From positions 1 to 9,572 of the forward strand of contig JAJZQR010000201.1 in NCBI GenBank assembly GCA_021806765.1: 9,572 nt of DNA, read 5' to 3'. Of the stretch, positions 3,973 through 9,360 are shown in pieces. The DNA comes from Chloroflexota bacterium. Its GTDB lineage: Bacteria; Chloroflexota; UBA6077. The first letter of the stretch is position 1; each line of letters starts with the position of its first letter. The notes beneath the pieces are model-generated. The model did not search any database. It was not told the origin of the DNA and saw only the letters and a program-made list of their open reading frames with translations. The position numbers and the translations under genes are program-made.

Positions 3973-4019
3973 TGAATTTCAAACCGGTGTTATTGCTGAA
4001 TTCCAAAACGTTGTTGACA
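3973..4019. repeat. IS21 right terminus with two direct repeats
   Basis: TGAATTTCAAACCGGTGTT (3973-3991) and TGAATTCCAAAACGTTGTT (3997-4015) match at 16 of 19 positions, with starts 24 bases apart. The outer copy ends in GACA at 4016-4019, so the element terminus read inward is TGTCAACAACG. IS21-family ends characteristically begin with TG and carry multiple repeats that bind the IstA transposase. The bases from 4020 on are IS1380 coding sequence, which fixes the boundary to the base. Confidence 0.8.
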
Positions 4020-5087
4020 CCGCTGCCACTCCAGGAGCTCCCTGCCTGCCGTGTCCCAGTCGTTCGTCACCACGGCGAAGCACTTCACCTTCGTGCCGTC
4101 GTTGAAGAGCACGCCCTGGGGAGAGCGGATCCGGATCGCCAGGTAGCGATAAGGCTTCGTGTCCTTCTTCTCGCCTGTCCGGCTGGGCACGTAGGCCACC
4201 TCCGCCCACTCCCGCACGTAACCCCCCTTCTCCACCTCCCACAGCTGCCACTCCTCGAAGGAGAGCCTGTCGATCTCGGCGTGCAGCTGCCGGCTCATAT
4301 CGGCGCTGACCGCGAACTTCCACCCCCTGGTGTTCCAGTGATCGAGCACCTCCTGGTCGTAGGCGGCCGAGTCGGATCGGACCGAGACGGTCCAGCCCCC
4401 CTGCCTGTAAGGCAGCGCGGCGTAGGCGCTGTCCACCATCCTGGCGATATCCTTGCCGGCGGGCACGTTCCCGTCGCGGAACTCATCGGCGAGCACCAGG
4501 TGAGTCTCGGCCCACACCACCAGCATCGGCTGATATCCCCGATAGCCCTCGTAGGTTGGTAGCGCCTCCCGCTTACTCGACTCGACGAGGTGGGCGTCCA
4601 CGTCCAGCGTCACCTCTGCCTTCGGTCTTACTGCCGTGATGTAGGCCCGCACTGAGTGATCCCTCACTGCGCCGAGCCCTGCGAGCCCAGCCGACTCCTC
4701 CGGGATGAAGCTCCCTTGGAGGGGTCGTCGGGCAAGGAGGCTCTCGTCGTGGAAGCTCCGCTCCAGCCATTGCCGCCCCGTCGATGCGGCCGGCAGGTCG
4801 TATCCAACTATCGCCGAGAGCCCGCGGTCCCGCCTCAAGGAGTCGAGGTCGTCCATGCACTCCCCTCCCAGGGCCGAGAGCAGGATGAAGGACTCCACCA
4901 TCTGGGCCTGAGCGAGCCCCTTCGGGTTCCCCTTCGTCGGCAGACACTTCTCGGCTGCGCCCATCACCCCGCTTACTCGCCCCAACTCCACCAGGAGCGC
5001 CACCCCAGCATGGGGCGTTACCTCGTTGGTGAGTCCTCCCCGAAAGTCGATGTCCAGGGCATTCGGCAGTACCTTCCTCCTCGCCAT
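3990..5087 (-). pseudogene. IS1380-family transposase, C-terminus cut off by IS21 insertion
   Basis: A DDE transposase remnant of 365 codons. The frame is open to 5141, but the ATG at 5087 has a fitting GGGAGG site upstream and begins MARRKVLPNALDIDF, so I choose it. IS1380 hallmarks are TLDVDAHLVES with the first catalytic Asp (D162 or D164), KREALPTYEGYRGYQPM, and SVRSDSAAYDQEVL with D239. Native sequence stops after LLEWQR (R356). The last nine residues, CQQRFGIQQ, are read from the IS21 terminus and end at a chance stop. Family members are usually about 430-480 aa; the missing part holds the third catalytic acidic residue, so the protein should be inactive. The rest of the frame has no stops or frameshifts, which suggests recent disruption. 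Confidence 0.85.
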
Positions 5088-5209
5088 CCCCCACCTCCCA
5101 GGTCCACAGTCTACCCGGAAGATGGTTCCTCGTCCCGCCACACCCGCCCTGTCTACTTCTTCTCATTCACCCATCGGGTGAACGTACACGCAGGAATCCA
5201 CGGATTAGG
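4020..5209 (-). mobile_element. IS1380-family element, left part
   Basis: The element reads on the minus strand from its probable left end at about 5209 to the IS21 junction at 4020. The proposed end starts CCTAATCCGTGGATTCC (5209-5193). Its CCTA start resembles the ends of ISEcp1, an IS1380-family member (CCTAGATTCTACGT), and lies 122 bases upstream of the transposase start, a sensible leader length. The right end, the matching inverted repeat and the 4-bp target duplication expected for the family are not in the window, so the left boundary is a motif-based inference. Confidence 0.65.
5166..5182. repeat. Inverted repeat in the IS1380 leader
   Basis: TTCACCC and GGGTGAA form a perfect 7-bp stem around ATC, between the proposed left end and the transposase start. 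It could be a subterminal transposase site or reduce translation of transcripts entering from outside, as known for other insertion sequences. No direct evidence separates these. Confidence 0.4.
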
Positions 5210-5282: not shown

Positions 5283-7415
5283 CTATTCCTTGTCCGGCTT
5301 CATCCCGAGGAGCCTGATCCCATTCATGGTGACCAGCAGCGAAGCCCCCATATCGGCCAGCACCGCCAGCCAGAGGGTGAGCCAGCCAGGGAAGACGGCC
5401 GCGACGGCCACGGCCTTGATCACAAGGGAAAACGTGATATTCTGCTTGATCACGGTGAGGGCCATCCGGCTGAGGCGCACCGTGAAGGGCAGCTTGGAGA
5501 GGTCGTCGGCCATCAGCACGATGTCGGCCGTCTCCATGGCCGTGTCCGTCCCCGCCCCTCCCATGGCGATGCCCACCGTCGCCGTCGCTAGGGCCGGCGC
5601 GTCGTTGATGCCGTCACCCACCATGGCCACCTTCCCATACTTGGCAAGAAGGCTCTCGATGGCCTTCACCTTGTTCTGGGGGAGTAGCTCCGCCCAGAAC
5701 TCGTCCACCCCGACCTGAGCCGCCACGGCCCTTGCTGTCGCCTCGTTATCCCCTGTGAGCATGTAGGTGCTGCGGATCCCCGCCCGCTTCAACCCCGCGA
5801 GAGCGGCCTTGCTGGTCTCACGGATCTCATCCGCTACGGCGACGATCCCCAGGAAGCCCTCGGCCGTTCCCACCACCATGGCCGTCTTGCCCTCCTCCTG
5901 GAGGCGGCGTACAGCCCCCGCGACGGGCTCGGTGGACGCTCCCAGTTCCTCGAACAGGCGCAGGTTTCCCACGTAGACGGTTTCTCCGATGACGGTCCCT
6001 TGAACCCCTCGGCCGGGCAGGGCGGAGAAGCCCTCCACCGGCTCAGCCTTCATGCCCCGTGCCTCCGCCGCCTTGACAATCGCGACGGAGAGAGGGTGCT
6101 CCGAGCGCACCTCCAGGTTGGCGGCTAGCTGGAGCAGCTCCCGCTCAGAGATCGAGTCGAGAGGCAGGACGTCGGTGGCGATGGGCTCTCCCCTGCTGAG
6201 GGTACCTGTCTTGTCGAGGGCGATGGCTGATACTGCCCCGGCATCTTCCAGGCTCATGCCTCCCTTGATCAGGACGCCGTTTCGCGCAGCGTTGCTGATC
6301 GCGCTGACTATGGTGACCGGTGTGGAGACCACCAGGGCGCAGGGGCAGGAGACCACCAATAGGGCGAGGCCGCGGTAGAGCCATGGAGCCCACTCGTAAC
6401 CCTGGACAAGCGGCGGGATCACGGCGACCCCGGCGGCCAGGGCCAGCACGATGGGGGTGTAGAGGGCGGCGAAGCGGTCCACAAAAGCCTGGGAGGGGGC
6501 ACGCTTGGCCTGCGCCTCCTCGACCAGATGGATGATCCTGGCAAGGGTGGTGTCCTCCGCCAGCTTGGTGACCGCGACCTCGAGGGATCCGTGGGCGTTG
6601 AAGGTGCCGGCGAAGACCTCGTCCCCGGGGCCCTTCTCCACGGGCACCGACTCGCCGGTGATCGCCGCCTCGTTGATGGCGGACGACCCTTTGAGGATCC
6701 GCCCGTCCATGGCGATCTTCTCGCCCGGGCGAAGGACCATCACGTCGCCGACTCGCACCTCCTCGACGGGGACTTCGATCTCCTCAGCGCCCCGCTGGAT
6801 CCTCGCTACCTTCGGTGCCAGGTCCATCAACTGGCGCAGGGAGCGGCGCCCCCGCTCCATGGTCCAGGACTCCAGCAGCTCGGAAAGGGCATACAGAAAG
6901 GCAACTCCCGCACCCTCCTCCCACTCCTGGATTGCTGCTGCCCCGATCAGGGCGAAGGCCATCATGACGCTCATGTTGAAGTTGAGACGGGGCAGCGCGT
7001 AGCGGGCCTTGCGGAAGTTGCCCCACCCGCCGATCACCATGGCCGCGATGTAGAGGGGGACGAAGACCGTGGAGGGGCCTCCGGCCCGGGACAGCGCGTA
7101 GGCCACCGCGAAGGCAACGCCGGAGAGAACGGTCCTCACCAGAGTCCAGTTGCGCCTGACTCCCGCGGCTTCCATCCGCCGCCCTTCTAGGGGAGTAATC
7201 AGATAGTTCTCGCTCTTGGCCTCCCCCCTTATCGCTTCCAGATCGACCATGCCATCGACGGTGAGCTTGCCAGCCGTGGGGTTGAGGACAGCCCTGGCGA
7301 CGCCAGGGAGAGCCGCCACGTTCTTCTCGAACTTGGCGGCGCAGTCCAGTCAGGTGATGCCTTCGACGCGGTAGACCTTGGCAACGCCGGGCTTGACGAG
7401 TTCGGCTTGGGCCAT
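5283..7415 (-). CDS. cadA: Zn/Cd/Pb-exporting P1B-type ATPase with in-frame UGA in the CxxC motif
   Basis: A heavy-metal efflux pump of the inner membrane, subgroup P1B-2. Read from ATG 7415 it has 710 codons. Residues 1 to about 75 are an HMA metal-binding domain (KVYRVEGIT-UGA-LDCAAKFEKNV). About eight membrane segments follow. TGES (253-256) is the actuator motif, CPC (357-359) the transport site, and DKTGT holds the phosphorylated D401. H440-P441, TGDN (554-557) and GDGIND (600-605) form the nucleotide and hinge sites. K667 and D688 in the last membrane segments mark Zn/Cd/Pb specificity. Start 7415 has a strong site (AAAGGGGAG) and lies six bases after cadC. Codon 22 is UGA, exactly where the first Cys of GxxCxxC belongs. 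It may encode selenocysteine; otherwise translation could restart at GTG 7319 and give a 678-aa pump without the HMA motif, which is often dispensable for transport. The rest of the gene is intact. Confidence 0.88.
7312..7352 (-). promoter_or_regulatory. In-frame UGA with SECIS-like stem-loop (candidate selenocysteine site)
   Basis: The UGA is at 7352-7350. Nine bases later a stem-loop forms: GCCGCC (7340-7335) pairs with GGCGGC (7317-7312), and inside it GTTC (7332-7329) pairs with GAAC (7323-7320), closing the loop GAGAA, with an AA/GT internal loop between the two stems. The apical loop begins 22 bases after UGA and starts with G. Known bacterial SECIS elements lie just downstream of UGA, with an apical loop roughly 16-37 bases away and a G among its first two bases. 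The stem is built from codons for conserved residues (AAKFEKNVAA), so part of it could be chance. No selenocysteine synthesis or insertion gene is in the window. Confidence 0.5.
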
Positions 7416-7421
7416 CTTGTC

Positions 7422-7880
7422 TCACTCCCCTTTGATCCGAGCTGCTTGCTGGGTTTGGGAAACCATCCGCGGTGTCGGTGAGCGGAAGGCGGCCCGACCG
7501 TGCGAGTCCTGGTCCTCAAGGTGCTGGACCACCTCGCCCACCAGGTTGCCGATGTGGGGGTCGGAAAGGCGGTAGTAGACCAGCTTCCCCTCCTTGCGGT
7601 AGGCCGCCAGACCCATGTGGTGAAGCAGGCGCAGGTGGTAGGAGGCCGTGGCCTTGCTGCTGCCGATGAGGCTCGCCACGTCGCAGACACACATCTCGGC
7701 CCGGCTGAGGGCGTAGACCACCTTCACCCGGGTGTCGTCGGCGAGGGCCTTGAAGATGGAGGCAACGCCTTCAGTGCGAGGGACCTGGGCCTTGAGCCGG
7801 CCCACCAGCTCCTCGTTGACACAGGTTACCTGGCAAACCGGCGCTTCCTCCCGATAATCGTCGAAAGACGGCAGCGACAT
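7422..7880 (-). CDS. cadC: ArsR/SmtB-family metal-sensing repressor CadC
   Basis: A 152-aa winged-helix repressor that leaves its operator when it binds Cd, Pb or Zn. The helix-turn-helix is about residues 62-92 (CVCDVASLIGSSKATASYHLRLL), followed by the wing (YRKEGKLVYYRL). Two metal sites are visible. The alpha3N site uses C16 and C20 (VCQVTC) with C64 and C66 (MCVC). The alpha5 site of SmtB/CadC type has D107, H109, H120 and D123 with the expected spacing. The N-terminal cysteines distinguish CadC from plain ArsR. A C-terminal extension of about 30 residues after QHLED is unusual and of unknown role. The ATG at 7880 follows a GGGGGTGAT site. It is the first gene of the operon, cadA starts six bases after its stop, and its operator overlaps the promoter region upstream, so it should repress itself and cadA. 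Confidence 0.92.
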   Translation of the reverse strand: MSLPSFDDYREEAPVCQVTCVNEELVGRLKAQVPRTEGVASIFKALADDTRVKVVYALSRAEMCVCDVASLIGSSKATASYHLRLLHHMGLAAYRKEGKLVYYRLSDPHIGNLVGEVVQHLEDQDSHGRAAFRSPTPRMVSQTQQAARIKGE

Positions 7881-7900: not shown

Positions 7901-7918
7901 ATCAAACGGTCGTTTGAT
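7901..7918. promoter_or_regulatory. CadC operator palindrome
   Basis: ATCAAACG-GT-CGTTTGAT is a perfect 8-2-8 palindrome. Its CAAA/TTTG core resembles the CadC/SmtB operator type (CTCAAATA/TATTTGA), and the surrounding sequence fits the 12-2-12 layout of ArsR/SmtB sites. It begins four bases downstream of the -10 box, so a bound repressor would cover the transcription start. Confidence 0.85.
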
Positions 7919-8679: not shown

Positions 8680-9360
8680 GTGAGCTCCACAACACTCTCT
8701 CCAACCCGCGCTCTGCGTCAGCCGAGACGCCTCGATTGGCGCGCCGTCTTCGGGATATTCCTCCTGCTCGTGGCCACCGGCGGGTCCATCACCTTCTGGA
8801 GCGCCTCGTCGGATACCCGCGCCCTCCTCGTTGCCACCCGCGATCTTCCAGCGGGGGCGGAGCTTGCGGCGGAAGACCTCGCCGTTGCCAGGGTCCGGGT
8901 GGACGATGCTATCTACCAGGCAGCGTTTCCTGCAGCGGAGCTGGCAGGCCTCGTCGGGAAGCAGTTGGCCGAGCCGATCCACACCGGGCAACTGCTGGTG
9001 CGAGCCCAGCTCTCCTCCCGACCACGCCTCGGCCCCGACCAGATGGCGCTCACCATCGCCGTCAGCCCCGAAACTGCCGCGGGCGGCCGCCTGCGAGCAG
9101 GAGATGCCGTGCAGGTACTGCTGACCACCAACAAAGGGAAGCCCGAGGCTCGAACGGTGGTGGTGCTGCCCCGGGCTACGGTCTACGACGTCGGCCACGA
9201 CCAGCGAGTGGCCGTGGTCAACACCGAGCTGGCTGATCGTTCCGGCGCTCAAGGGGCAGCCAAGTGGCTCACGCTGGTGGTGACCCAGGAGCAGGCCCTC
9301 CAGTTGGCGCAGGCGAAGTGGGCGGGCGAGCTGGATGTGGCCCTGCTACCCCCACGGTGA
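8680..9360 (+). CDS. cpaB: Tad/Flp pilus assembly protein CpaB (SAF domain)
   Basis: A 226-aa membrane-anchored protein of Tad-type (Flp) pilus machines. The start is GTG with GGGAGG seven bases upstream. Residues about 1-22 are cytoplasmic and basic, and a single membrane anchor spans about 23-41 (AVFGIFLLLVATGGS). A SAF domain follows at about 47-112 (ALLVATRDLPAGAELAAEDL...GLVGKQLAEPIHTGQLL), then an RcpC/CpaB-type domain (ALTIAVSPETAAGGRLRAGDAVQVLL) to the end. In Caulobacter and Aggregatibacter homologues CpaB/RcpC works with the outer-membrane secretin. In a single-membrane organism its partner is less clear. The protein is somewhat shorter than the usual 250-300 aa. The next gene begins 19 bases downstream, so it opens an operon, and more pilus genes (ATPase, platform, pilin) should follow outside the window. 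Confidence 0.85.
   Translation: MSSTTLSPTRALRQPRRLDWRAVFGIFLLLVATGGSITFWSASSDTRALLVATRDLPAGAELAAEDLAVARVRVDDAIYQAAFPAAELAGLVGKQLAEPIHTGQLLVRAQLSSRPRLGPDQMALTIAVSPETAAGGRLRAGDAVQVLLTTNKGKPEARTVVVLPRATVYDVGHDQRVAVVNTELADRSGAQGAAKWLTLVVTQEQALQLAQAKWAGELDVALLPPR

Follow-up and report, generated by a model that had tools for sequence, protein, structure and literature searches.

The cadC-cadA operon of the window (the whole 9,572-nucleotide stretch of DNA analysed here) appears to encode a Zn/Cd/Pb efflux ATPase in which selenocysteine (Sec), inserted at a UGA codon under the direction of RNA hairpins, stands at the first Cys position of the CxxC motif in the N-terminal metal-binding domain, making it UxxC. 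We put the probability of this reading, which is drawn from sequence comparison, at roughly 85%. The cadA gene occupies positions 5283–7415 of the minus strand and, if UGA is a residue, gives a Zn/Cd/Pb-type P1B ATPase of 710 residues. Its start at ATG 7415, favoured in an earlier note on this DNA, holds up: the codon lies six bases past the cadC stop (7424–7422), and a likely ribosome-binding site, AAAGGGGAG, is located at 7433–7425 on the same strand. From this ATG the gene reads MAQAELVKPGVAKVYRVEGIT-UGA-LDCAAKFEKNVAAL... The UGA (7352–7350, minus strand; codon 22 of the translation) interrupts a frame that has no other stop ahead of the terminal one at 5283 and is otherwise intact on both sides. 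This probable selenocysteine codon replaces the first Cys of GITCLDC, the GxxCxxC motif of the HMA domain, as the earlier note had also described.

The rest of the cadA translation has the features of such a pump. It retains TGES, CPC, DKTGT, HP, TGD and GDGIND, again in agreement with the earlier note, and we take these to be the named motifs of P-type pumps. P1B-2 (Zn/Cd/Pb) ATPases are marked by a transport-site CPC together with a downstream Lys and an Asp-x-Gly, and the translation carries these in SCPCALVV, SLVIKA and LADMGA. Pfam assigns an HMA domain (residues 14–63), an E1-E2 ATPase domain and a hydrolase domain. The product scores above the NCBIfam cut-offs of both TIGR01525 and the cadmium subfamily TIGR01512 (521.1 bits, cut-off 313.5), with an NCBIfam profile match of 608.7 bits (cut-off 346.25), and falls just under the cut-off of the copper model TIGR01511 (396.4 bits, cut-off 397). 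Its top structural matches are the solved cadmium-translocating ATPase 7qbz and the zinc-transporting ATPase 4umv.

The UGA recurs at the same codon in homologous pumps. The relatives considered were 119 proteins, i.e. the best 120 of 7997 matches minus the window's own shortened protein. Among those listed, 87 contain the full Cys motif within their first 140 residues, and 19 (two of which are also among the 87) start with MDCA, exactly one residue past the UGA site, because gene callers place a start there when they meet an in-frame TGA; an annotation fault is thereby exposed. A further 15 of the listed relatives start still further downstream, and four downstream-starting proteins (P0097, P0098, P0095 and P0074) are identical to a UGA locus. 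Scanning genome contigs for the pattern GIT-TGA-xDCA returned 40 loci, of which 28 are homologous pumps with TGA at the same codon, amounting to 29 places (one locus, L035, has two) in 25 genomes. The other 12 loci were judged to be chance matches and dropped. The UGA-form loci fall in Bacillota and Actinomycetota, and their Bacillota carriers include Desulfofundulus, Pelotomaculum, Thermosediminibacter, Desulfosporosinus, Syntrophomonas, Dethiobacter and Alicyclobacillus. The exact pattern is absent from the viral contigs, where 17 loci have related pumps, and the 1846 plasmid records partly similar to the query include none that spans 80% of it.

The earlier note had proposed looking for alternation between UGA and Cys in homologues, and both forms are indeed found at this codon. 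From an even draw of 299 Bacillota genomes, 34 have a pump match at E 1e-200 or better, and the motif was read at 30 of these loci: nine have UGA and 21 have Cys. The note had also named, as damaging to its proposal, close relatives that all carry Cys without a conserved hairpin. As far as Cys is concerned, this is true of the two nearest listed proteins (81% and 79%) but not of the family at large, with UGA in 28 loci. An error of sequencing or assembly, or a recent mutation of the Cys codon to a stop (TGC or TGT to TGA), would fit the single contig and the Cys of the nearest listed proteins; it is nevertheless very improbable given TGA at the same codon in 28 other loci from independent assemblies, the UGA-specific hairpins described below and the completeness of the second of these hairpins in the window. 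A variant genetic code, in which UGA would stand for another amino acid such as Trp, is scarcely conceivable: any code that assigns UGA an amino acid would leave the cadA frame open, but cadC in the same window terminates at TGA, and the relatives show Cys rather than Trp at the UGA position in the motifs read.

Several loci depart from the simple arrangement of one UGA in one HMA domain. In Syntrophomonas sp. STD2_151 (L035/L061), three tandem HMA domains precede the pump and read GITCMDC, GITUMDC and GITUMDC, one with Cys and two with UGA. In Dethiobacter sp. Tomsk_51_21 (L047/L058), a single pump has a UGA-form HMA domain followed by a Cys-form one. A second group of UGA pumps (L087, L117, L119–L122 and L108), about 50% identical, has UGA at the same position in the motif G[LM]D-UGA-PDC. 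Separately, in-frame TAG, TAA and TAG codons occur within the pump matches G017:C1:321656-323731, G067:C63:963-3053 and G088:C2:4185-6293, respectively, which are possibly broken genes.

The RNA immediately 3' of the UGA is predicted to be strongly folded. The 60 nucleotides that follow the codon in the window have a folding energy of −32.8 kcal/mol (z = −3.41 against dinucleotide shuffles). The stem-loop proposed in the earlier note is present as SL1 (7340–7312, minus strand) with the loop GAGAA (7328–7324), but the spacing between the UGA and the loop is 21 nt and not 22. Beyond this single stem-loop, there is a second hairpin, SL2 (7292–7308, minus strand; CCCUGGC-GUC-GCCAGGG), the loop of which lies 47–48 nt from the UGA and which is kept in most UGA forms. 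It is the least expected part of the finding. As pairing may simply follow from the encoded protein, a null was made by replacing codons at random with synonymous ones, weighted by the usage of the gene concerned, at 34 UGA places and 34 Cys places. Against this null, SL1 of the window, with all 11 of its 11 pairs, stays within the protein constraint (pairing P = 0.16, energy z = −1.38, not significant); the earlier note had itself cautioned that conserved codons force part of the hairpin. SL2, with 6/6 pairs, shows a modest excess (P = 0.0235, energy z = −1.90). By our own implementation of the bacterial SECIS rules of PMC13188914, the SECIS-like SL1 fits, with its GAGAA loop at 21 nt and an energy of −20.2 kcal/mol. 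Rfam, searched in the window at a permissive threshold, gave six matches, all under their gathering scores and none of them a SECIS element, and a tRNA search of the window found none.

The strength of the structural case, as judged from sequence, comes from the relatives rather than from the window alone. Conservation of the hairpin, a check that the earlier note had suggested, is specific to the UGA forms, as judged by the synonymous null, sliding windows, covariation and the SECIS rules. With synonymous codons redrawn, the mean energy z of the 34 UGA places is −1.67 for the first 45 nt and −1.27 for the SL2 region, as opposed to +0.32 and −0.08 in the 34 Cys places. The UGA places form 5.38 of the six SL2 pairs (3.73 expected; P < 0.05 in 17/34) and 9.41 of the 11 SL1 pairs (8.00 expected; P < 0.05 in 7/34). 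The same significance level is reached by none of the 34 Cys places for SL1 and by one for SL2. Sliding windows were laid along 23 UGA genes (23 of the 34 places, with near-duplicates and short frames removed), a control of the same ancestry, and the two windows at the UGA are the lowest of 155 (−1.61 and −1.43; the next is −0.77). In an alignment of the 34 UGA sequences (33 distinct), 86.6% of cells pair compared to 81.1% after shuffling, and covariation is 0.221 compared to 0.134; none of 500 shuffles is as high in either measure. Changes on both sides of a pair occur at columns 15–39, 18–36, 24–30 and 48–58, although neither the number of pairs with two-sided change (333/500) nor that of further pair types (244/500) exceeds the shuffles in this alignment. 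The Cys alignment (28 of the 34 Cys places) shows 48.7% pairing and a covariation of 0.123, with 29/500 shuffles as high. Since related sequences can outscore shuffles without any structure, the synonymous and sliding-window controls carry more weight. The SECIS rules fit 30 of the 34 UGA places and five of the 34 Cys places. In the second UGA clade (UPDC, seven places), the positions of SL1 and SL2 show no excess (mean z of 0.20 and −0.23); other hairpins let six of the seven places fit the SECIS rules, several of them with a C-GU-N-G loop.

Mapped onto a 155-row tree, the UGA label has to change 18 times, and well-supported branches force no fewer than 17 of these changes; Sec and Cys therefore appear to have switched repeatedly. 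The tree was built by a quick method from protein matches up to P0100 with end-cut loci left out, and some of its long branches were flagged. The window's cadA is sister to two Cys forms, P0003 and P0004. The Alicyclobacillaceae (41 genomes, 13 of them with selA over the cut-off) contain three strong Cys forms and two UGA-form copies. Pairing of SL2 is complete in one of the Cys forms (L134), as would be expected of a change from Sec to Cys, and partial in another (L136). The two UGA-form copies (L124 and L125), one of which is frameshifted, belong to Alicyclobacillus sp. ALC3, and they were found without Sec genes. The UGA form can thus occupy a host seemingly unable to decode it.

Most of the genomes that carry the UGA form also have genes for Sec insertion. 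The carrier set represents 25 of the 28 UGA loci, the remaining three (L042, L043 and L049) lying in assemblies already included. Both selA and selB are over their cut-offs in 20/25 genomes each (one, G012, has two further selA fragments), and tRNA-Sec scores above 60 bits in 19/25. The 60-bit line is our own, adopted because the curated cut-off of 47 bits, passed by 20/25 carriers, is also passed by 5/14 control genomes. Of the 25 carriers, all of which are relatives and not the window's own host, 22 have one or more of these markers (selA, selB or a tRNA-Sec above 60 bits). The complete chromosome of Alicyclobacillus sp. ALC3 (G013) has no selA and neither selB nor tRNA-Sec over the cut-off. 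Two metagenome-assembled genomes (G015 and G024) have neither selA nor selB over the cut-off and no tRNA-Sec above 60 bits; the tRNA hit of G024, at exactly 47.0 bits, was left uncounted. In the Bacillota draw, selA is found in all nine UGA genomes, in 18 of the 21 Cys genomes read and in 197/299 overall, and the association of selA with UGA is weak by itself, as selA is common anyway. The three Cys genomes that lack it include G288, the pump of which is 69% identical to that of the window.

These genomes bear directly on the possibility that the UGA is a real stop. A host lacking Sec genes might have inherited a Sec-type cadA or acquired it by transfer; the gene would then give a short peptide, and any pump would arise from an internal start (e.g. 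GTG 7319, a 678-residue frame) and would lack the N-terminal metal-binding domain. The two ALC3 copies, one frameshifted and with no Sec genes found, are a parallel, the window's contig carries an IS-type transposase and two tyrosine recombinases, and the N-terminal domain of such metal pumps is often dispensable. We nonetheless consider a real stop unlikely, given the Sec markers in 22 of the 25 carriers, the complete hairpins of the window (11/11 and 6/6 pairs) and its intact frame on both sides of the UGA. Moreover, codons −10 to −4 upstream of the UGA evolve as protein, with a pN/pS of 0.51 compared to 1.16 and 1.65 in the shifted frames (361 non-independent pairs), a pattern not expected if the pump arose from an internal start alone.

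Directly upstream of cadA, cadC (7422–7880, minus strand) encodes an ArsR/SmtB-family metal-responsive repressor with an EMCVCD motif. It is preceded by a palindrome, ATCAAACG-GT-CGTTTGAT (7901–7918), which is likely to be the operator. A regulator with a CadC-like motif is found within 900 nt upstream at 27 of the 34 UGA places, on the same strand in 18 and on the opposite strand in nine; two of the other seven places had too little sequence. UGA pump loci with such regulators look like metal-induced efflux units. The surroundings in the window are mobile, with two phage-integrase-type (tyrosine) recombinase genes and an IS-type DDE transposase on the contig (45–2956, plus strand, and 3990–5141, minus strand). 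An RcpC/CpaB Flp-pilus assembly protein with a SAF domain is encoded at 8680–9360 (plus strand).

If cadA is a selenoprotein gene, a ribosome starting at ATG 7415 would reach the UGA at codon 22, where SelB and tRNA-Sec, presumably supplied by the host, would decode it as Sec under the direction of the hairpins just 3' of it (SL1, perhaps together with SL2). The resulting selenolate-thiol pair may capture soft metal ions ahead of transport. Being softer than a pair of thiols, such a site may have a preference for Cd, Pb or Hg. The earlier note had proposed a selenolate-thiol UxxC site in CadA, and both the alternation with Cys and the UGA-specific hairpins of the relatives support it. This raises a testable question: does selenocysteine aid the capture of soft metals by the pump?

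Heavy-metal P-type ATPases with UxxC are already listed as predicted selenoproteins (PMC2398784, PMC9312934, PMC13188914 and PMC5029168, the last listing 32 selenoproteins in 25 organisms). The listed proteins (ABB15669.1) appear to be of the same kind as the window's cadA product, so that cadA joins a selenoprotein family already predicted, and the recoding signal is the newer question. The passages on the listed family treat it as predicted only and give no RNA signal, and a literature search by title returned nothing that pointed, for these pumps, to such a signal or to Sec-bearing HMA domains in tandem. Here, the family gains comparative evidence: two hairpins defined at the level of codons, HMA domains repeated in tandem with Sec, and UGA/Cys switches that recur many times across a tree.

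In the part of PMC13188914 that sets out the bacterial SECIS element, the loop has 3–9 nt with a G among the first two, the stem has at least four pairs, the spacing is 16–37 nt and the energy is −7.5 or lower; the loop mostly has that G followed by G or U. SL1 agrees in its 5-nt loop with G first, its spacing of 21 nt, its stem of at least four pairs and its energy, but its loop has GA in place of the G[G/U] that the model describes as usual. SL2, on the contrary, has a C-GUC-G loop that conforms to the pattern N1-G-[G/U]-N-N2 with N1 and N2 pairing, but at 47–48 nt it lies outside the spacing range. Because SL1 has the right spacing and a non-standard loop, SL2 has the GU loop and is too distant, and both are kept in UGA forms and not in Cys forms, we tentatively raise the possibility of a two-hairpin recoding signal, in which SelB would bind SL2 and SL1 would serve as a folded spacer. 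This would be a distinct class of SECIS, with Sec as a metal ligand and not a redox residue. Sec as a metal ligand is suggested for SaoB, SaoC and UXX-star in the relevant part of a review; these and the putative mercuric transport protein are metal or metalloid selenoproteins of families other than that of cadA. With the P1B-2 zinc, cadmium and lead pumps ZntA/CadA, in turn, the window's cadA shares its domain order and motifs, and it differs from them in the probable Sec that replaces one Cys of the N-terminal CxxC.
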